DNA of 64,000 nucleotides. Origin: Planococcus liqunii. Lineage in GTDB: Bacteria; Bacillota; Bacilli; Bacillales_A; Planococcaceae. This document shows positions 4,262 to 61,952 of the stretch, one piece after another. The notes under the pieces were generated by a model that was not told the origin of the DNA, did no database searches, and was given only the letters and a program-made list of their open reading frames with translations. Each line of letters opens with the position of its first letter. Within the stretch, counting starts at the first letter, position 1. The stretch spans positions 3,658,001-3,722,000 of the forward strand of contig NZ_CP129238.1 of NCBI RefSeq assembly GCF_030413595.1, in the 5' to 3' direction. The translations under genes were made by a program, and so were the position numbers.

Positions 4262-4447
4262 TTACCGTCCCTCCCCTCCTGAAATATTCGAAATGCAAGT
4301 TTCACAAATGAATTTCCCTTCGTTTTTTAAGTAAGCTCTGATTTCAGTAAATCCTTTTCTTTTGGGATAGCGCATTTTAAGGAAGATGACTTAGCCCCCT
4401 TCAATTTCCTTACCACATGAAGAGCATCGGGGGTTTTCGGTGAACAA
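4262..4447 (-). pseudogene. two-knuckle zinc-ribbon protein broken by an in-frame TAA
   Basis: A 61-codon frame with a strong site (GGAGGTG) before a TTG start at 4447. It encodes a CSSC knuckle at codons 8-11, then TAA at codon 19 (4393-4391), then in the same frame VIFLKMRYPKRKGF, EIRAYLKNEGKFIC and a second knuckle CETC. The two halves together match small Bacillales proteins usually (and oddly) named Fe3+ hydroxamate ABC transporter substrate-binding protein, about 60 residues with two CxxC pairs and the MRYPKRKG core. A single base change (for example GAA to TAA) explains the break. No ribosome site precedes the second half, so it is probably not made separately. Confidence 0.75.
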
Positions 4448-25750: not shown

Positions 25751-26040
25751 AAAAAAATCCCACCCCCAAGACAATTGTCTTGGGGACGAGATTACTAAAA
25801 TCGTGGTGCCACCCCTGTTTGTCAATACGTCACCGCATTAACCTCATTCGGTACAGCCATGAAAAATGGCGATTACCTTAGCCCGATAACGGGAGCTCCC
25901 GTCCCAACATCCCCCAAAATCAGGTTCCGCTGTGATGCTCAGAGGTTTGTTTCAATAACGGACTCCTACTCCTTTCCAGCAACCGGAGCTCTCTAGAAAA
26001 AGTCTTAAGCTATCTACTGTTCTCTTCAACGCTTTTCATT
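25751..26040 (-). promoter_or_regulatory. T-box leader upstream of the MFS transporter
   Basis: On the minus strand the leader shows the T-box hallmarks in order. An AGTAG segment comes first, then AGAGAG with GGTTGCTGGAAA, then GAAACAAACCTCTGAG (at 25953-25944 and on), which holds the specifier. The T-box core GGGTGGCACCACG follows (complement at 25800-25812). Last is the terminator CCCCAAGACAA/TTGTCTTGGGG (25764-25785) with a U7 run. The specifier frame is not certain by eye: ACA (Thr), CAA (Gln) or AAC (Asn) are all possible. The UGGC of the T-box would pair with a tRNA having G at position 73. Confidence 0.88.
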
Positions 26041-40311: not shown

Positions 40312-43248
40312 ATGCCGGTCAAAATCAACGGTTCACTGTATGAGTTCCAGGAAGGCCAGACGATTCTCCAAGTGGTCAATGCGTATGGCATCACGCATCC
40401 GCAGATCTGTTATTTGCCCGAAGTCAATCCGATTGAAACCTGCGACACGTGCATCGCGGAAGTCGACGGACAGCTGATGCGGACCTGTTCGGCCAAAGCG
40501 GTATCCGGGATGGATATCCGCCTCGCTTCCCCGCGGGCAAAAGAAGCGCAGACGGAAGCGATGGACCGGATCCTGGAAAACCATTTACTGTATTGCACGG
40601 TCTGCGACAACAACAACGGCAACTGCAAAGTACATAACACCGTGGACATGATGGAAATCGAACACCAGAAATACCCGTTCGAGCCGAAATGTTCAACAGA
40701 TGCCGTCGATTTCACCAATCCGTTTTACCGCTACGACCCTAACCAGTGCATCGCCTGCGGGCAATGCGTCGAAGCGTGCCAGAACCTGCAGGTCAATGAA
40801 ACCTTGTCGATGGACTGGGAACGGGACCGCCCGATCGTCTTGTGGGACGGCGGCGCGAAAATCAACGATTCGTCCTGCGTCAGCTGCGGCCACTGCGTCA
40901 CGGTATGCCCGTGCAACGCGCTCATGGAAAATACGATGCAAGGCGAAGCCGGCTTTATGACCGGCCTGAAAGATGAAGTACTGACGCCGCTGATCGACCT
41001 CGTGAAAGACGTCGAACCGGGCTACAGCGGCATCCTGGCAATTTCAGATGCGGAAGCGGCGATGCGCGAAACCCGAACGAAAAAGACTAAGACGGTGTGC
41101 ACGTTCTGCGGCGTCGGCTGCACGTTCGAAGTGTGGACGAAAGACCGGAAAATCCTGAAAGTCCAGCCGGTATCGGAAGCACCGGCGAATGCCATTTCCA
41201 CTTGCGTCAAAGGAAAATTCGGCTGGGATTTTGTCAACAGCGAAGAGCGCCTGACCACACCGCTGATCCGCCGCGGCGAAGAATTTGTCGAAGCCACTTG
41301 GGAAGATGCGCTCGACCTGGTGGCAAAACGCCTCGGGGAAATCCGGCATGAACACGGCAAAGACGGCGTCGGCATCATTTCTTCGTCAAAAATCACCAAT
41401 GAAGACAATTACGTCATCCAAAAGCTGACACGCCAAGTGTTCGAATCGAACAATGTCGACAACTGCTCGCGCTATTGCCAGACTCCGGCAACGGACGGTC
41501 TGTTCCGCACGGTCGGCATGGGCGGCGATGCCGGCACCATCCAGGATATTGCTAGTGCAGGCCTCGTCATGATTATCGGCGCAAATCCGGCGGAAGGGCA
41601 TCCAGTCCTTGCCACGCGCGTGAAACGGGCGCACAAACTGCATGGACAGAAGCTGATTGTCGCCGACTTGCGGAAAAATGAAATGGCTGAACGCGCCGAC
41701 CTCTTTATCCGGCCGAAACAAGGCACGGATCAGGTCTGGCTCATGGCGGTCACTAAGTACTTGATCGACCAGGGCTGGCACGACCAAGACTTTATCGAAG
41801 ACAATGTCCACCATTTTGAGGACTTCAAAGAGGTGCTGGAGAAATATACGCTTCAATACGCCGAACAGGAAACCGGGCTTTCGCCGGAAACGCTCATCCG
41901 GATTGCCGAAGCGATCCGTGATGCAGACGGCACGTGCATCTTGTGGGGCATGGGCGTCACCCAGAATACCGGCGGATCGGACACGTCCGCTGCCATCTCG
42001 AACTTGCTGCTGGCGACTGGCAATTACCGCCGTCCGGGCGCCGGGGCGTATCCGCTCCGCGGGCACAACAACGTGCAAGGCGCCTGCGATATGGGTTCCC
42101 TTCCCGCCTGGCTGCCGGGCTATCAGCATGTGTCGGACGATGCGGCGCGTGCGAAATTCGAACAGGCTTACGGCGTCGAAATCAGCGACAAGCCGGGCTT
42201 TGACAACGTGTCAATGCTGCGCGCCGTTGACGACGGCATCATGAAAGCGATGTATGTTGTCGGCGAAGACATGGCACTGGTCGATTCCAACTCGAACCAC
42301 GTCGATGAAGTCCTGTCGAAACTGGACTTTTTCGTGGTGCAGGATATCTTCTTCTCCCGCACGGCGCAATACGCCGATGTCATCCTGCCGGCGGTGCCGT
42401 CGCTCGAAAAAGATGGCACGTTCACGAATACGGAACGCCGCGTGCAGCGTCTTTACCAGGCACTGCCGGAACTTGGGGATGCAAAGCCCGACTGGTGGAT
42501 TGTCCAGGAAATCGCGAAACGCCTCGGCGCCGACTGGGACTACAGCCATCCGGGTGAAATCTTCGCCGAAATGGCCAGCTTGACGCCGCTTTTCAGCCAG
42601 GCCGATTATGAGTCGCTGGAAGGCTGGAACAGCTTCTTATGGGGCAGCCATGACGGTTCCAGTACGCCGCTGCTGTATGTCGACGGGTTTAATTTCAATG
42701 ACAAAAAAGCGCGTTTTGCCCTGTCGGACTGGGTCGAACCGGTCGAGTTCGCGGCAGAGTTCGATCTGCATATCAACAACGGCCGCATGCTCGAACATTT
42801 CCACGAAGGCAATTTGACGGACCGCTCAACCGGCATCCACGAAAAAGTGCCGGAGAACTTTGTCGAAATGTCGCCTGAACTCGCAAAAGCGCGGGACATT
42901 TTGGACGGTTCGGTTGTCCGGCTGATTTCTCCATTCGGCGCCGTCAAAGTGCCGGTCGTCGTGACTTCGCGGGTCCAGGGCAATGAACTCTTTTTGCCGA
43001 TGCATTCCACGAATAAGGAACGGGCCATCAACTTCTTGACCGGCCCTGCGACCGACCAGCGGACCAATACTCCGGCCTTCAAGCAGACGAAAGTCCGCAT
43101 GGAAGTGCTGCAAAGGGACGGCCACAACCCGCTGCCGAAATCGAACCACCGCACCAAAAAGCGCCACCCGACACGGGGTGTGGAAGTTGAACGCAAATGG
43201 CGGCGGCCGGATCACGTGCCGCTGACCGACCAACCGAAAGAAAGGTGA
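40312..43248 (+). CDS. fdhF: formate dehydrogenase alpha subunit, molybdopterin enzyme (Cys type)
   Basis: A 978-residue soluble formate dehydrogenase (YrhE/YjgC type), oxidising formate to CO2. It has an N-terminal [2Fe-2S] domain (CYLPEVNPIETCDTC), a histidine/cysteine [4Fe-4S] region (YCTVCDNNNGNCKVH), a two-cluster ferredoxin domain (CIACGQCVEAC, CVSCGHCVTVCPC), a further [4Fe-4S] site (CTFCGVGC) and the bis-MGD domain. The molybdenum ligand is Cys389 in NCSRYCQTPAT; the codon is TGC, not TGA, so this is not the selenocysteine form. AAAGGAGGTGCCGGC precedes the ATG. fdhD is divergent and a DUF1641 gene follows at once. Confidence 0.95.
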   Translation: MPVKINGSLYEFQEGQTILQVVNAYGITHPQICYLPEVNPIETCDTCIAEVDGQLMRTCSAKAVSGMDIRLASPRAKEAQTEAMDRILENHLLYCTVCDNNNGNCKVHNTVDMMEIEHQKYPFEPKCSTDAVDFTNPFYRYDPNQCIACGQCVEACQNLQVNETLSMDWERDRPIVLWDGGAKINDSSCVSCGHCVTVCPCNALMENTMQGEAGFMTGLKDEVLTPLIDLVKDVEPGYSGILAISDAEAAMRETRTKKTKTVCTFCGVGCTFEVWTKDRKILKVQPVSEAPANAISTCVKGKFGWDFVNSEERLTTPLIRRGEEFVEATWEDALDLVAKRLGEIRHEHGKDGVGIISSSKITNEDNYVIQKLTRQVFESNNVDNCSRYCQTPATDGLFRTVGMGGDAGTIQDIASAGLVMIIGANPAEGHPVLATRVKRAHKLHGQKLIVADLRKNEMAERADLFIRPKQGTDQVWLMAVTKYLIDQGWHDQDFIEDNVHHFEDFKEVLEKYTLQYAEQETGLSPETLIRIAEAIRDADGTCILWGMGVTQNTGGSDTSAAISNLLLATGNYRRPGAGAYPLRGHNNVQGACDMGSLPAWLPGYQHVSDDAARAKFEQAYGVEISDKPGFDNVSMLRAVDDGIMKAMYVVGEDMALVDSNSNHVDEVLSKLDFFVVQDIFFSRTAQYADVILPAVPSLEKDGTFTNTERRVQRLYQALPELGDAKPDWWIVQEIAKRLGADWDYSHPGEIFAEMASLTPLFSQADYESLEGWNSFLWGSHDGSSTPLLYVDGFNFNDKKARFALSDWVEPVEFAAEFDLHINNGRMLEHFHEGNLTDRSTGIHEKVPENFVEMSPELAKARDILDGSVVRLISPFGAVKVPVVVTSRVQGNELFLPMHSTNKERAINFLTGPATDQRTNTPAFKQTKVRMEVLQRDGHNPLPKSNHRTKKRHPTRGVEVERKWRRPDHVPLTDQPKER

Positions 43249-49814: not shown

Positions 49815-51146
49815 ATGAAATGGAGAAAAATTTTGGCACTGGTACTAGGGGCAGCTTTGCTGATTCCCGGAATGGGCACAACCGCATTCGCGGATGAAAT
49901 GCCGAAAACAGACACAACAGGCGTGGAGCTTCGCACGGCACTCGATTCCTTGCTATCTGAACACTATGTGCTTGCAGTCGATTCGATGATGAAAATTTAT
50001 GATGGAGACCCTGCTGCTGAAGCAGCTTCCGCAGCGCTTGAAGCCAATGCGAAAGACATGGAACCGGTCATTGCATCGGTATACGGCGAAGAAGGCGGAG
50101 CGGCTTTCGGGGACATTTTCAATAAGCACAACCTTGGAACCGATGACTACGCGATGGCCGTAAAAGACGGCAACAAAGACATGGAGCAGCAATCACTCGA
50201 TCAGATTCAGGCATTTACTGAAGACATGGCGGCATTCCTTGCTACTGCAACCGAAGGCAAACTGCCGGAACAAGCAGCCCAAGCTGCACTCCGTGAGCAC
50301 GAAGATTTCGTCCAGGACACATTCGACCTATACACAGCCGGTGAATACGAAGCGGCTTATACGTCTTACCTGGCCGGCTCTAAGCAAATCTTCGGTGCTG
50401 GCAGTGCCATCAGCGGTGCAATTGCAGCGCAATTCCCGGACAAATTTACCGACCCGAACACAGCAGCCGGTGATTTCCGCTCAACTGTGAACCGCATCGC
50501 CGCTGAACATTTTGCCTTGGCACAGCTCAGCATGGCAAAAGGCTTTAACGGAGCCGAAGACTTCGACTTTGCCGATTGGGCACAAGACCAGAACACTGAA
50601 GAATTCCGTGCAGCCATTGCATCTCTTTACGGGGAAGAAGCGGGTACACAATTCGTCCAGATTTGGGACAATGAACACATTTCCATCCAAAGCGAATTAG
50701 CGGCAGCCGCGGCTTCAAAAGACCAATCGGCTGTGGACCAAGCTACAACAGCTTTAACCGGAGACTTTGCTGAATCATTAGGAACATTTCTGAGCACGGC
50801 TACAGAAAACCGTATGCCAAAAGACGGCACAGTTGCCGGAATAACAGCTCACGAACAATCGGTAGCCGACACGTTCAATCAGTATGCAGCCGGTGACTAC
50901 GATGCTTCCTACAAGTCTTACCGTGCCGGCTACGCTATTATGTTTGATATCGGAAAAGGCTTGAGTGCAGCGGTTGTTGATCAGTTCCCAGACAACTTCC
51001 AAACTGCAGCGCCGGAAAAAATGCCGAAAACCGGCTTTGGCGGCACTGCTGAAGAGTCCAATACCATGATGCTGTGGGTTGTATTAAGCAGCTTGATCTT
51101 AGCTATCGCTGGAACTGTTACGTATCGTCAAAGCAAACAATCTTAA
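49815..51146 (+). CDS. MPKTG-anchored surface protein with two helical repeats (sortase substrate)
   Basis: A 443-residue cell-wall protein: signal peptide (about 1-26), two repeats of about 180 residues (about 35-210 and 222-395), sorting signal MPKTG at 403, a hydrophobic stretch and the basic tail YRQSKQS. Each repeat starts with an EHxxLA helix, continues ASVYGEEGG or ASLYGEEAG, and contains further conserved histidines (KHNLG or NEHIS, EHEDFV or AHEQSV). This suggests a metal-binding helical bundle. Databases often call relatives copper amine oxidase, which the sequence does not support. The class F sortase gene follows 54 nt later and should anchor it. A paralog lies at 56391-57752. Confidence 0.85.
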   Translation: MKWRKILALVLGAALLIPGMGTTAFADEMPKTDTTGVELRTALDSLLSEHYVLAVDSMMKIYDGDPAAEAASAALEANAKDMEPVIASVYGEEGGAAFGDIFNKHNLGTDDYAMAVKDGNKDMEQQSLDQIQAFTEDMAAFLATATEGKLPEQAAQAALREHEDFVQDTFDLYTAGEYEAAYTSYLAGSKQIFGAGSAISGAIAAQFPDKFTDPNTAAGDFRSTVNRIAAEHFALAQLSMAKGFNGAEDFDFADWAQDQNTEEFRAAIASLYGEEAGTQFVQIWDNEHISIQSELAAAAASKDQSAVDQATTALTGDFAESLGTFLSTATENRMPKDGTVAGITAHEQSVADTFNQYAAGDYDASYKSYRAGYAIMFDIGKGLSAAVVDQFPDNFQTAAPEKMPKTGFGGTAEESNTMMLWVVLSSLILAIAGTVTYRQSKQS

Positions 51147-51200
51147 GTGGATGAGAGAGCGATTCGCTCTCTCTATTCCCGTTTGGAAGGAGAGCTGAAA

Positions 51201-52160
51201 ATGAAGCCTTTTGTGACCATGAGCATCGCCGTTTTCTTATGCGGCGCCCTGTTTTTCCTGCTGAATCCTTTAGCAGAGGATTCTCTTTTAAATGAAACAG
51301 CCAGCCCCTCGGAAGAAACCGCGAGTGGCTTGGCGGCAGAAACAAAAGAAGAGCCGGCTGTCGATAAAATTGCTGAATTTCCGGTCTTTCCTGAACAACG
51401 GGAAAAATTGAAAGCCTTGCAGCAAAGCCGGCTCGAAAGCACCAAGGGCATGGAACCCGTTTCCATTGATATTCCTTCAATTGATGTGAAAGCGGCCATT
51501 GAACCGACCGGTGTTTTGGAAAACGGCGAAATGGGCGTGCCGGAAAATGTGGATCAGGTCGGTTGGTTTGAACCGGGATATAAACCCGGCGCGAAAGGCC
51601 ATTCTGTATTTGCAGGGCATGTCGACAGCTTGACCGGCCCCGCCATTTTCTATGACTTAAAGAAAGTGAAAACAGGCGAAAAAGTGGCGTTAACGGACGC
51701 CAATGGGCGAAAGATGGTGTTCAGCGTTACCGCTATCAAGAGCTATGAAACCGATGAGGCGCCAATTGAAAAGATTTTCGGAAAATCGGATGCGCGCATG
51801 ATCAACCTGATTACATGCACCGGGGATTTCAACCGCTCGATCGGTTCGCACGAAGAGCGGCTAGTCGTCACGGCGGAGCTCGTTTCGGACTCCGCTACTG
51901 CCGAAAAGCTCCCTGCTCCACCGTCGCAAGTGACGGCCACTTCTTCCAGTCTTTCCTGGCATGCGGTGCGGGATGATGCCATTATCGGCTACCGTGTGTA
52001 TGAAGAAAATCCGGAAACAGGCGAGATCAAGAAAATCGAAACGGTTTCCTTGTTTGACCGCAAAAAAGTGGCCATTCAAAATACCGATGGCAAACGCTAT
52101 TTCATCACTTCCGTGGATGTCGATTTGAACGAATCAGAAAAAGCGGAAGCCGTTCAATAA
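51201..52160 (+). CDS. class F sortase with C-terminal FN3-like domain
   Basis: A 319-residue membrane-anchored transpeptidase: N-terminal signal anchor (about 6-24), a linker, sortase domain about 85-228 with His140 (VFAGHVDS), Cys206 (NLITCTGDF) and Arg220 (HEERLVVTAEL). An unusual extra domain follows (about 238-313, PPSQVTATSSSLSWHAVRDD, then GYRVYEEN and FITSVDVDLNESE) with the look of a fibronectin type III fold. It should cut the MPKTG motif between Thr and Gly and attach the protein to peptidoglycan. AAGGAGAGCTGAAA precedes the ATG. It is the second gene of an operon with its substrate. Confidence 0.9.
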   Translation: MKPFVTMSIAVFLCGALFFLLNPLAEDSLLNETASPSEETASGLAAETKEEPAVDKIAEFPVFPEQREKLKALQQSRLESTKGMEPVSIDIPSIDVKAAIEPTGVLENGEMGVPENVDQVGWFEPGYKPGAKGHSVFAGHVDSLTGPAIFYDLKKVKTGEKVALTDANGRKMVFSVTAIKSYETDEAPIEKIFGKSDARMINLITCTGDFNRSIGSHEERLVVTAELVSDSATAEKLPAPPSQVTATSSSLSWHAVRDDAIIGYRVYEENPETGEIKKIETVSLFDRKKVAIQNTDGKRYFITSVDVDLNESEKAEAVQ

Positions 52161-53727: not shown

Positions 53728-54243
53728 TTAGTTGTTAAGCAAGTCGTTGTATTCTTTCTTGATTTTTTCCATCGTTTCGGGCAATTCCTCGCCCCACCGG
53801 TCGTTCGCTTCATTAAACACGACATTGCCTTCAGTATCCAGCATGCCATATCCTCTGTACGGAACGTCTCCATTTTTCATATTGAGCAGATCCACAATTT
53901 CCAAATCCGGATCCGATACGAACGGAAGGCTTTCCCCGTATTTGTTCTTCAAGGCGGTATACAGTTCCAATTGCTGTTCAGGCGTATCGCCGCTGATAAT
54001 ATACGTGTTTACATCCAAGCCATCTAGCACATCCAAGTTTGAGTGCAACTGAACCAGTTGCTGTTGGCAGTGGCTTCAGGTGTAAGTCGTGATAAAGAAG
54101 AAAAGAACAGGCTTTTCTTGCGGGAACGCCACTTCTTGCTTGTCCTGATTCAGCAATGTGGTGGGTTCGCCCATTTTCTCCGTACCACAGCCCGAAATGA
54201 CCACAGCAGAAATCAATAAAAGAAGGAGCAGTTTTAACTTCAT
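53728..54243 (-). CDS. thioredoxin-fold lipoprotein with in-frame TGA at the redox Cys (candidate selenoprotein, or pseudogene)
   Basis: From ATG 54243 (AAAGGAGAGAG upstream) the frame runs 171 codons to a stop at 53728, broken only by TGA at codon 56 (54078-54076). The protein has a lipobox ISGC (Cys19), a strand KPVLFFFITTYT directly before the TGA, then SHCQQQLVQLHSNLDVLDGL and a full AhpC/TSA-redoxin-like C-terminal part (IISGDTPEQQLELYTALKNK, PYRGYGMLDTEGNVVF). The TGA thus falls where the first Cys of a CxxC redox motif belongs, giving TYT-TGA-SHC. A 7-bp hairpin with loop GUU follows 14 nt later. Either UGA is read as selenocysteine (UxxC) or one base change (TGC or TGT to TGA) killed the gene. 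Downstream coding is otherwise undamaged. It may reduce thiols or peroxides outside the membrane. Confidence 0.7.
54045..54061 (-). promoter_or_regulatory. SECIS-like hairpin downstream of the in-frame TGA
   Basis: On the minus strand GCAACTG, loop GTT, CAGTTGC form a perfect 7-bp stem. The stem begins 14 nt and the loop 21 nt after the TGA, and the loop starts with G. This fits the usual bacterial SECIS layout (loop 16-25 nt downstream, G among its first bases). By itself a 7-bp stem could occur by chance. Confidence 0.4.
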
Positions 54244-54382
54244 TGAAAATCTCTCTCCTTTCTGTCTGTTAAATTCATCCCATTCTATCACTGAAATGAC
54301 CCAGATTCTTTGAAATAGAGGAAAAGTTGATAAAACGCCATATTTTTTACTAAAGAATGAACGATTTCAGTTCCGCTAGAAA

Positions 54383-56390: not shown

Positions 56391-57752
56391 TTAGTTTTGT
56401 TTGCGTGCACGAAGCCCGATGGTTGTTGCCAGGCCAGCAAGCATCAGCCCGCCAAGGATCCACATGAATGGCATTGACGATTCGTCAGCTGTTCCGCCCA
56501 TGCCGGTTTTTGGCATTTCTGACGGCATTGCCGCTTCACCGAACTGATCCGGGAACTGATCGACAATCGCTGCCGATAATCCAGCGGCCGGCATTGTCAT
56601 ATGCGCGTATGCTTCGCGGATCGAGTTGTAAGCTGTGTCGTAATCACCCGCTACGTAAGAATCGAATGCTACCAGCAATTGGTCCACGTGTGCAGTCAAG
56701 CCTTCTTCCAACGCATCGGCCGGCACTCGTCCTTCAGTTGCCGCGTCCAATAGAGCTGCTTGTTCTTTAATGTACTCGTCCAAGTCGGCTTTAGCCTTTT
56801 CCTGGCCTTCTGCATTGCCTTCACCTGTCGCCACTACGTAATCCACGAAATAGCCGATATGCGATTTCCAGATTTCTGAAAACTGTGCGCCGGCTTCTTC
56901 GCCGTAAACAGAAGCCACTGCTGCTGATAAGTCATCCGCATTGGCAATCAAAGCCGCAGATGCCTGGTCGAAGCTTTCTGCGCCATCAGCGCCGTCCTGC
57001 ATCGCCATCGCTGCCAGTCCGGCATGTTCCGTGAATGTCATGTTCAACTGGGCACGAAGGTCAACAGCCGGTGTATCAGGGTTCGTGTTATCGAATTTTT
57101 CCGGGAATTGGTCCGTGATTGCAATGGAAAGTGTTTCTGCGAACATGCTCATGTGATGGATGGATTCGCGCTCCAGTCCATAAGCTGTTTCAAAGTCTCC
57201 TGCAACGTAAGCGTCAAACGCTTTGACTAGCTGGTCGACGTGCATATCCAAACCTTCCTGTACTGCAGCTGCCGGCAATCGGCCTTCTGTTGCTGCATCA
57301 AAGAATTCGGATTGAGTTTTCTTGTATTCTTCCAAGTCGGCCAATGCTTTGTCTTTTCCAGCCTGGTCTTCTTTGGCCGTTGCTGTTACATAATCAACAA
57401 AGTAGCCGATATGCGACTTCCAGATCTCATCAAACTGCGCCGCCCCTTCTTCGCCGTAAACAGAAGCCACTGCCGCTTTCAAATCATCTGCGTTTGCCAA
57501 CAGCGCGCCGGATGCCTGATCAAAATCTTCCGCTCCGTCTACACCTTTTCTCATGGCTTCAACTGCTAAAAAAGCATGTTCCGTTAAAACCGTGTCCAAT
57601 GCAATGCGAAGTTCAGCAGCTGGTGTTGCTGTGCTGCTTTCCATGGAAGCTTCGTTTGAAGAATGAGCGCCGTGCCCATCCGCCAGTGCAGCCGTCGGTA
57701 CGAGTAAAGAAAGCGTTAATGGAAGTGCCACCAATAATTTGTTCAGTTTCAT
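56391..57752 (-). CDS. MPKTG-anchored surface protein with two helical repeats (paralog)
   Basis: A 453-residue paralog of the protein at 49815-51146 with the same plan: signal peptide (1-25), two repeats of about 180 residues, MPKTG at 413, hydrophobic stretch, tail RARKQN. The two repeats here are much more alike than in the first paralog: both contain GADGAEDFDQAS or close variants, DDLKAAVASVYGEEG-type and FDEIWKSHIGYFVDYV-type segments, and MHVDQL or AHVDQL. Four conserved His positions per repeat suggest metal or cofactor binding. It has no sortase gene of its own, so the class F sortase at 51201 probably anchors it too. AAAGGAGATGTTTTAA precedes the ATG. Confidence 0.87.
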   Translation of the reverse strand: MKLNKLLVALPLTLSLLVPTAALADGHGAHSSNEASMESSTATPAAELRIALDTVLTEHAFLAVEAMRKGVDGAEDFDQASGALLANADDLKAAVASVYGEEGAAQFDEIWKSHIGYFVDYVTATAKEDQAGKDKALADLEEYKKTQSEFFDAATEGRLPAAAVQEGLDMHVDQLVKAFDAYVAGDFETAYGLERESIHHMSMFAETLSIAITDQFPEKFDNTNPDTPAVDLRAQLNMTFTEHAGLAAMAMQDGADGAESFDQASAALIANADDLSAAVASVYGEEAGAQFSEIWKSHIGYFVDYVVATGEGNAEGQEKAKADLDEYIKEQAALLDAATEGRVPADALEEGLTAHVDQLLVAFDSYVAGDYDTAYNSIREAYAHMTMPAAGLSAAIVDQFPDQFGEAAMPSEMPKTGMGGTADESSMPFMWILGGLMLAGLATTIGLRARKQN

Positions 57753-61779: not shown

Positions 61780-61952
61780 AAAAAAGCCCTCTTTTCTCTG
61801 CATACGAGAAAAGAGGGCTGCGTTAATGGACGATTTCGCTCTCTTATCTCCCAAGAAAAATTCTTGCTGGAATTAGCACCTTTCTGACAAATGTCAGAGG
61901 TTGCTGAAGCGTCAACGGGCCAGTCCCTCGGCTTCTCTGGATAAGATTATTA
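61780..61952 (-). promoter_or_regulatory. SAM-I riboswitch (S-box) with terminator
   Basis: On the minus strand the S-box core is clear: CTTATCCAGAGAAG, GAGGGACTGGCCCG, TTGACGCTTCAGCAACC, AAGGTGCTAATTCCAGCAAG and the closing GGGAGATAAGAG. The expression platform AGCCCTCTTTTCTC (61785-61798) pairs with GAGAAAAGAGGGCT (61806-61819) and ends in a U-run. When S-adenosylmethionine is plentiful the operon is switched off, so the genes belong to the methionine/sulfur regulon. Confidence 0.95.

Follow-up and report, generated by a model that had tools for sequence, protein, structure and literature searches.

A bacterial gene interrupted by a single TGA may be broken, may encode two products or may use this codon for an amino acid. 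The question is raised by a lipoprotein gene of the redoxin type found in Planococcus liqunii, within a stretch of 64,000 nucleotides (contig NZ_CP129238.1, positions 3,658,001 to 3,722,000, hereafter the window), where an earlier note made from the sequence alone had proposed a candidate selenoprotein. According to the analysis reported here, codon 56 of this gene almost certainly stands for selenocysteine (Sec), the rare 21st amino acid. A probability of about 93% is given to the explanation as a whole, namely that Sec would be inserted under the control of a selenocysteine insertion sequence (SECIS) into a lipid-anchored extracytoplasmic reductase. This reading draws on sequence evidence: a single frame, a conserved UGA, a covarying SECIS-like hairpin, the Sec machinery of the same genome, purifying selection and a predicted fold.

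Reading frame and position of the TGA

The gene starts with an ATG at 54243 on the minus strand, downstream of a good ribosome-binding site. Its single internal stop is the TGA at codon 56 (54078-54076), after which 115 sense codons are followed by a TAA at codon 172; direct inspection of the sequence returned the lipoprotein frame of 171 codons that the earlier note had described. The residues surrounding the TGA read FFFITTYT-U-SHC, so that this codon opens a UxxC redox motif (U56-S-H-C59). The N-terminus, by reading, is a lipoprotein-type signal ending in VVISGC19. The 64-kb window was also scanned for frames split by a TGA, with at least 40 codons before the stop and at least 60 after it. 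Among the 27 raw cases, two were covered for less than 30% by other long open reading frames (ORFs): the redoxin gene, and a frame whose TGA lies just upstream of the ordinary ATG of an ORF.

Conservation of the TGA, selection and co-occurrence with selB

Eight relatives of the redoxin were found in named genomes with 58-98% identity, and in all eight the frame is interrupted once, by a TGA at codon 56. They belong to Planococcus glaciei (98%), P. chinensis (96%), Planomicrobium sp. (82%), Bacillus taeanensis (66%), Aquibacillus halophilus (64%), Mesobacillus foraminis (63%) and two assemblies of Robertmurraya korlensis (58% each). A sequencing error is very unlikely, because the same TGA occurs in separate public assemblies. 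Among 398 genomes drawn from the class Bacilli, 10 gave a total of 11 matches; ten of these matches have exactly one TGA and one, in genome G086, has none.

The window protein, the eight named relatives, nine further TGA rows and the row of G086 (L047) were combined in an alignment of 19 rows reaching down to about 27% identity. These rows are partly non-independent, as some species apparently occur in several collections and two rows come from one genome (G255). The TGA falls in one column across the 18 TGA rows and is replaced there by Cys (CSAC) in the row of G086, a genome without a selB match; this Cys form is 34% identical to one of the Sec forms (L048). The lipobox Cys19 is present in 19/19 rows. 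The check for a Cys at position 56 in relatives, suggested by the earlier note, was thus answered in two ways: the named relatives all have the TGA, and one distant Cys form exists, in a genome that lacks selB.

In the same 398 genomes, selB exceeded the cut-off in 85, and the nine genomes with a TGA form all possess it (hypergeometric probability of 6.5e-7, kinship ignored). At the level of the order, the TGA gene was found in 5 and selB in 27 of 261 genomes, with all 5 among the 27. The profile matched 11 genomes of this set, and six of the matches (L055-L060), devoid of a stop, were dropped as non-orthologous. This was judged by eye: four are AhpC-like (FTFVCPTEL), two are redoxins with WCPVC or WCSVC, and none has a lipoprotein signal.

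The ratio of non-synonymous to synonymous changes (pN/pS), computed between the window gene and each of 10 relatives from uncorrected proportions, is 0.07-0.31 for codons 57-168 and 0.14-0.53 for codons 21-55, one of the latter comparisons being undefined as it contains no synonymous change. In the distant pairs, where synonymous changes approach saturation, the ratios are if anything too high. The codons past the TGA appear to be under purifying selection, unlike a decaying or untranslated tail.

Selenocysteine machinery of the genome

The window belongs to a single-contig genome of 3.96 Mb. The genes selA, selB and selC (tRNA-Sec), whose absence would have counted against the earlier note, and selD are all present in this genome, past the right end of the window and 15-21 kb from the redoxin gene (cluster at about 3727.3-3733.5 kb, redoxin gene at 3711.7-3712.2 kb, in genome positions). 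The genome search gave 566 bits for selA, 352.5 bits for selB and 410.6 bits for selD, and the tRNA-Sec, with anticodon tca, scored 63.8 bits against a cut-off of 47. The selD gene (L030:12476-13525, genome 3732475-3733524) itself contains an in-frame TGA at codon 18, in the context MTEKDMVKLTSLSSKGG-U-GCK, followed by a GGTCC-TGA-GGACC hairpin. It is likely a selenoprotein gene in its own right, so that the redoxin gene is probably not the only one in this genome.

Other selenoproteins were sought in the genome by family, among AhpC-TSA proteins, molybdopterin enzymes, formate dehydrogenase and selD. The AhpC-TSA family gave 12 matches, with a TGA in the redoxin gene only. The sole formate dehydrogenase match (window 41092-43098), which is also the only match to the molybdopterin family, has no TGA; this agrees with the earlier note, which had listed the point as an objection, and is harmless to the Sec reading.

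The SECIS-like hairpin

The hairpin reported in the earlier note was found as described. Its stem begins 14 nt past the TGA and pairs 54061-54055 with 54051-54045 around a GTT loop (54054-54052), which lies 21 nt from the TGA and has G as its first base; a 48-nt segment folds at -10.3 kcal/mol. The published bacterial SECIS model specifies a loop of 3-9 nt situated 16-37 nt past the UGA, a stem of 4-16 bp, a G in the first two loop bases and an energy of at most -7.5 kcal/mol (PMC13188914). The redoxin hairpin lies within each of these limits.

Across the 18 TGA rows, 17 of which are distinct, 95.8% of the stem cells are paired versus 87.2% in shuffled alignments, a value reached by none of 500 shuffles. 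Twelve two-sided changes are found at three of the seven stem pairs (G-C to U-A, A-U to G-C and G-C to C-G), and shifting the partner strand lowers the pairing to 13-39%. Of the 85 six-codon stretches of the gene, that of codons 60-65 shows the strongest conservation of codons.

Fold, known families and probable function

The full read-through protein matches the AhpC-TSA model of Pfam (PF00578) with 45.5 bits for a cut-off of 26. The part past the TGA alone reaches 19.9 bits and the part before it matches no redoxin model, which indicates that the two halves together form the domain. A peroxiredoxin/thioredoxin-type fold is predicted by structure modelling. With NCBIfam (June 2026), none of the six proteins for which scores were available (the window protein, L045, L046, L047, L048 and P0044) reached the cut-off of any model; for the 14 remaining rows of the 19-row alignment only E-values are given, the best over all rows being 2.4e-9.

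Two families of a 2026 catalogue of 119 selenoprotein families come close: a 'Prx-like thiol:disulfide oxidoreductase' (PF00578, UxxC/UxxU), which shares the Pfam domain, the UxxC motif and a predicted redox role, and a 'Redoxin family protein' (PF08534, UxxC) (PMC13188914). By domain and motif, the window redoxin could be filed under either. The former family (representative WP_010940744.1) was compared by domain, motif and description only. The genomes named for Prx-like selenoproteins in the available part of an earlier survey are mainly Deltaproteobacteria (PMC1794560), whereas the window redoxin is a lipoprotein of Bacilli; the same source counted three selenoprotein families in Bacillales in 2006. 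In the literature searched in full text, including the accessible parts of PMC13188914 and PMC9312934, no description of a lipid-anchored redoxin selenoprotein of Bacilli was found. As far as this search extends, the kind (Prx-like UxxC redoxins) is known and the lipid-anchored, almost Sec-only family of Bacilli is undescribed.

Two NCBIfam models come nearest among those related to selenoproteins. Of the 19 aligned proteins, 18 match the SelL-related model NF040769 at E <= 0.001, yet the window protein scores 26.9 bits against a curated cut-off of 120 and falls outside this family. The SelL motif, moreover, is UxxU, as opposed to the single Sec and UxxC of the window redoxin. NF053656, the TUGYCR motif thioredoxin fold (seleno)protein, is also a redoxin (seleno)protein family of NCBIfam; it is matched by one of the 19 (L045, 23.4 bits for a cut-off of 100), and the window protein is not among its matches. 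Peroxiredoxins of the Bcp/PrxQ/AhpE and AhpC types show 9-22% identity to the window redoxin in the 50 rows listed, and differ from it by the Sec three residues before the peroxidatic position and by the lipoprotein signal. The membrane-anchored thiol-disulfide oxidoreductases ResA and StoA of Bacilli, which are exported CxxC redoxins and alike in this respect, have weak profile similarity to it, below the family cut-offs where scores are given; the window redoxin has Sec in place of their first Cys.

In the three peroxiredoxin alignments listed, Cys59 coincides with the Cys known as peroxidatic, and Sec56 lies three residues before it. Sec56 is aligned with the Ser of a [TS]xxC motif in two of these chains, and in the third it stands beside the Thr, opposite a gap. 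The TxxU pattern of peroxiredoxin selenoproteins, with Sec at the peroxidatic position after a Thr, was not found in these three alignments.

The proposed sequence of events is as follows. SelB loaded with Sec-tRNA(Sec) would bind the hairpin past the UGA, Sec would be inserted at codon 56 and translation would continue to the TAA. The product would be exported, its lipobox cleaved and a lipid anchor attached to Cys19. In the predicted fold, Sec56 would begin the first active-site helix with Cys59 three residues on. The protein is most likely an extracytoplasmic selenol-based reductase in which Sec56 would attack a disulfide or peroxide and Cys59 would resolve the intermediate as an Se-S bond, a membrane electron donor then restoring the reduced enzyme. 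We infer the insertion of Sec, the anchoring, the catalytic cycle and the partner from the features above, and a role as surface disulfide/peroxide reductase is considered probable.

A lesser though serious possibility is that the selenoprotein is a peroxidase proper, of the peroxiredoxin type, or a ResA/StoA-like reductase of cytochrome c or protein thiols, rather than a general surface reductase. The Bcp/PrxQ/AhpE/AhpC peroxiredoxins are its nearest neighbors in both sequence and fold and the peroxiredoxin Arg is kept, with a weaker similarity to ResA. A peroxidase is disfavored by the location of Cys59, and not Sec56, on the peroxidatic position in these three alignments, and by UxxC being a thioredoxin-type motif. 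As for cytochrome maturation, no neighbor with such a role was recognised on reading the neighboring frames, except for an SCO1-like one that adjoins the gene in a single genome (L067).

Observations and readings opposed to a selenoprotein

A number of observations weigh against the preferred explanation. Taken in the window gene alone, the hairpin is unremarkable: random synonymous recoding keeps 7/7 pairs in 12.9% of trials and the local 81-nt fold has a z of -1.02. The single-gene test was consequently rejected as stand-alone evidence and conservation across relatives was used instead. The 11 closest rows covary weakly (reached by 18/500 shuffles), and the strength of the covariation signal comes from the diverged rows. 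Even in the full row set, the number of pairs with a two-sided change is matched by 25/500 shuffles and that of further pair types by 67/500, while four of the 17 distinct rows lack the innermost stem pair and one lacks the outermost. The only Cys form found is distant from the window protein (30% identity). The gene is patchy, being absent from 22 of the 27 genomes of the order that have selB; it is therefore not needed for the Sec trait, and these genomes are presumably served by other selenoproteins. Finally, the gene neighborhood is not conserved overall and so does not point to a function.

Protein databases offer a different view of the gene. Two overlapping searches of a set of 5.8 billion proteins yielded 43 and 67 relatives, respectively, 67 proteins in total. 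Fourteen are full length or nearly so, all with W at the Sec site; the remaining 53, of 86-111 residues, are fragments beginning past this site, and no full-length form with Cys, U or X was found among the 67. The fragments, together with a TTG start available at 54048, would suit a locus that, as in public annotation, encodes a lipopeptide of 55 residues up to the TGA and, from a start codon past it, a second protein, a redoxin of about 105 residues. This is very improbable: the short forms have neither signal peptide nor Sec site nor (P0018 excepted) Cys59, and they cut a predicted fold. Two separate products would also leave the co-occurrence with selB unexplained, and the UGA, the hairpin and the upstream half are all conserved.

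A recent nonsense mutation in a decaying gene is still less credible. The frame is indeed interrupted, and the window contains another gene (4262-4447, minus strand) that the earlier note called broken; the latter encodes a small CxxC protein, its stop is a TAA, not a TGA, and it is no Sec candidate. The nonsense reading is already contradicted by the eight named relatives, the TGA being shared by relatives down to about 27% identity and the TGA form co-occurring with selB. The independent decay in relatives that the earlier note had named as a possible refutation was not seen, given the absence of any second lesion and the low pN/pS downstream.

A reading of the TGA as Trp (code 4), or plain near-cognate read-through, can be dismissed almost entirely: the W of the 14 full-length records is most simply a gene-caller rendering of TGA under code 4, this genome uses TGA as an ordinary terminator (selA and 2 of the 13 ORFs near the redoxin gene) and has a tRNA-Sec, and Sec or Cys, not Trp, is what the redox motif and the Cys form of a genome without selB require. 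The selenoprotein reading is supported by the checks that could be run: the sel genes, the TGA of the relatives and the SECIS constraints, with covariation across the diverged rows.

The relatives also include a second, diverged subfamily with the pattern GxxU-D-[FY]-C-[KQ]SQLVELQ (L046, L049, P0044, P0046, P0048-P0051, P0055, P0057, P0060, P0061 and P0063-P0067). The TGA is seen in its two DNA rows, L046 and L049; the protein records, for example that of Mesobacillus subterraneus, show W or are cut short.

Features and gene neighborhood

Features of the redoxin locus, in window positions
Feature	Position	Strand	Details and evidence
Lipoprotein redoxin gene, candidate selenoprotein	53728..54243	-	171 codons followed by TAA, putative Sec codon 56; frame, relatives, PF00578 AhpC-TSA match
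In-frame TGA, read as Sec (U of UxxC)	54076..54078	-	same codon in 8/8 named relatives, same column in 18 TGA rows
Putative resolving Cys of UxxC, codon 59, TGC	54067..54069	-	invariant in the 19-row alignment
Lipobox Cys (ISGC), codon 19, TGT, presumed lipid-anchor site	54187..54189	-	invariant in the 19-row alignment
Arg codon 130, AGA	53854..53856	-	invariant; aligned with Arg of the three peroxiredoxin chains listed
SECIS-like hairpin, 7-bp stem GCAACTG/CAGTTGC, GTT loop	54045..54061	-	sequence, fold, covariation
Ribosome-binding region AGAAAGGAGAG	54253..54263	-	direct sequence
Terminator-like hairpin and T run AAAACCGCAGAATTTCTGCGGTTTTTTA, 3' of TAA	53689..53716	-	direct sequence, fold

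The terminator-like hairpin, recognised by eye and folded, lies 12-39 nt past the TAA, and a hairpin with a T run was likewise seen by eye past the stop codon in seven of the eight named loci (L031-L038). A terminator scan listed none, and the one promoter-like site obtained is not above chance.

A run composed of a Penicillinase_R (BlaI-type) regulator, an M56 peptidase and DoxX precedes the redoxin gene in four of the eight named loci (L035-L038), which represent three species, of Mesobacillus, Bacillus taeanensis and Robertmurraya; Pfam was applied to L035 and, for DoxX, to L036. The run is absent from the window, from L031-L034 and from 10 further loci, and this context is taken as a hint and not as defining. 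In the window, and also in L031 and L032, the gene is flanked by two large proteins that resemble each other and have MPKTG-like C-termini (window 49815-51146 and 56391-57752). One of their genes is directly followed by a sortase-like gene at 51147-52160. At locus L070, a formate dehydrogenase-like gene, possibly for a Sec enzyme, appears to be split in two frames between 2.2 and 0.1 kb before the selenoredoxin gene of genome G020. No plasmid copy of the redoxin gene was found. Elsewhere in the window, a T-box leader and a SAM (S-adenosylmethionine) riboswitch occur at 25779-26038 and 61841-61947, both on the minus strand.

Significance

The redoxin is very probably a genuine selenoprotein, and would stand out by its lipid anchor and its near-exclusive use of Sec. 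A broader proposal is put forward tentatively and is, in its entirety, rather unlikely: an uncatalogued, nearly Sec-only family of surface redoxins in Bacilli, with several subfamilies truncated by gene callers, would combine a thioredoxin-type UxxC, its Sec near the Thr/Ser position of peroxiredoxins, with the peroxiredoxin Arg, would act with membrane partners such as DoxX and, besides SelD, would repay the upkeep of the Sec machinery in lineages like this one.

A family so far present as fragments or W copies (67/67 in the protein database searched) would become one of full-length selenoproteins, and the in-frame SECIS, kept by codon choice, would serve as a ready-made profile with which more members could be found and re-annotated. 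Since the only formate dehydrogenase match of the genome is devoid of Sec, the redoxin gene may help explain why the Sec machinery has been retained in this lineage. If the reading is true, bacteria such as Planococcus, Bacillus and their relatives would carry out selenium chemistry at the cell surface.
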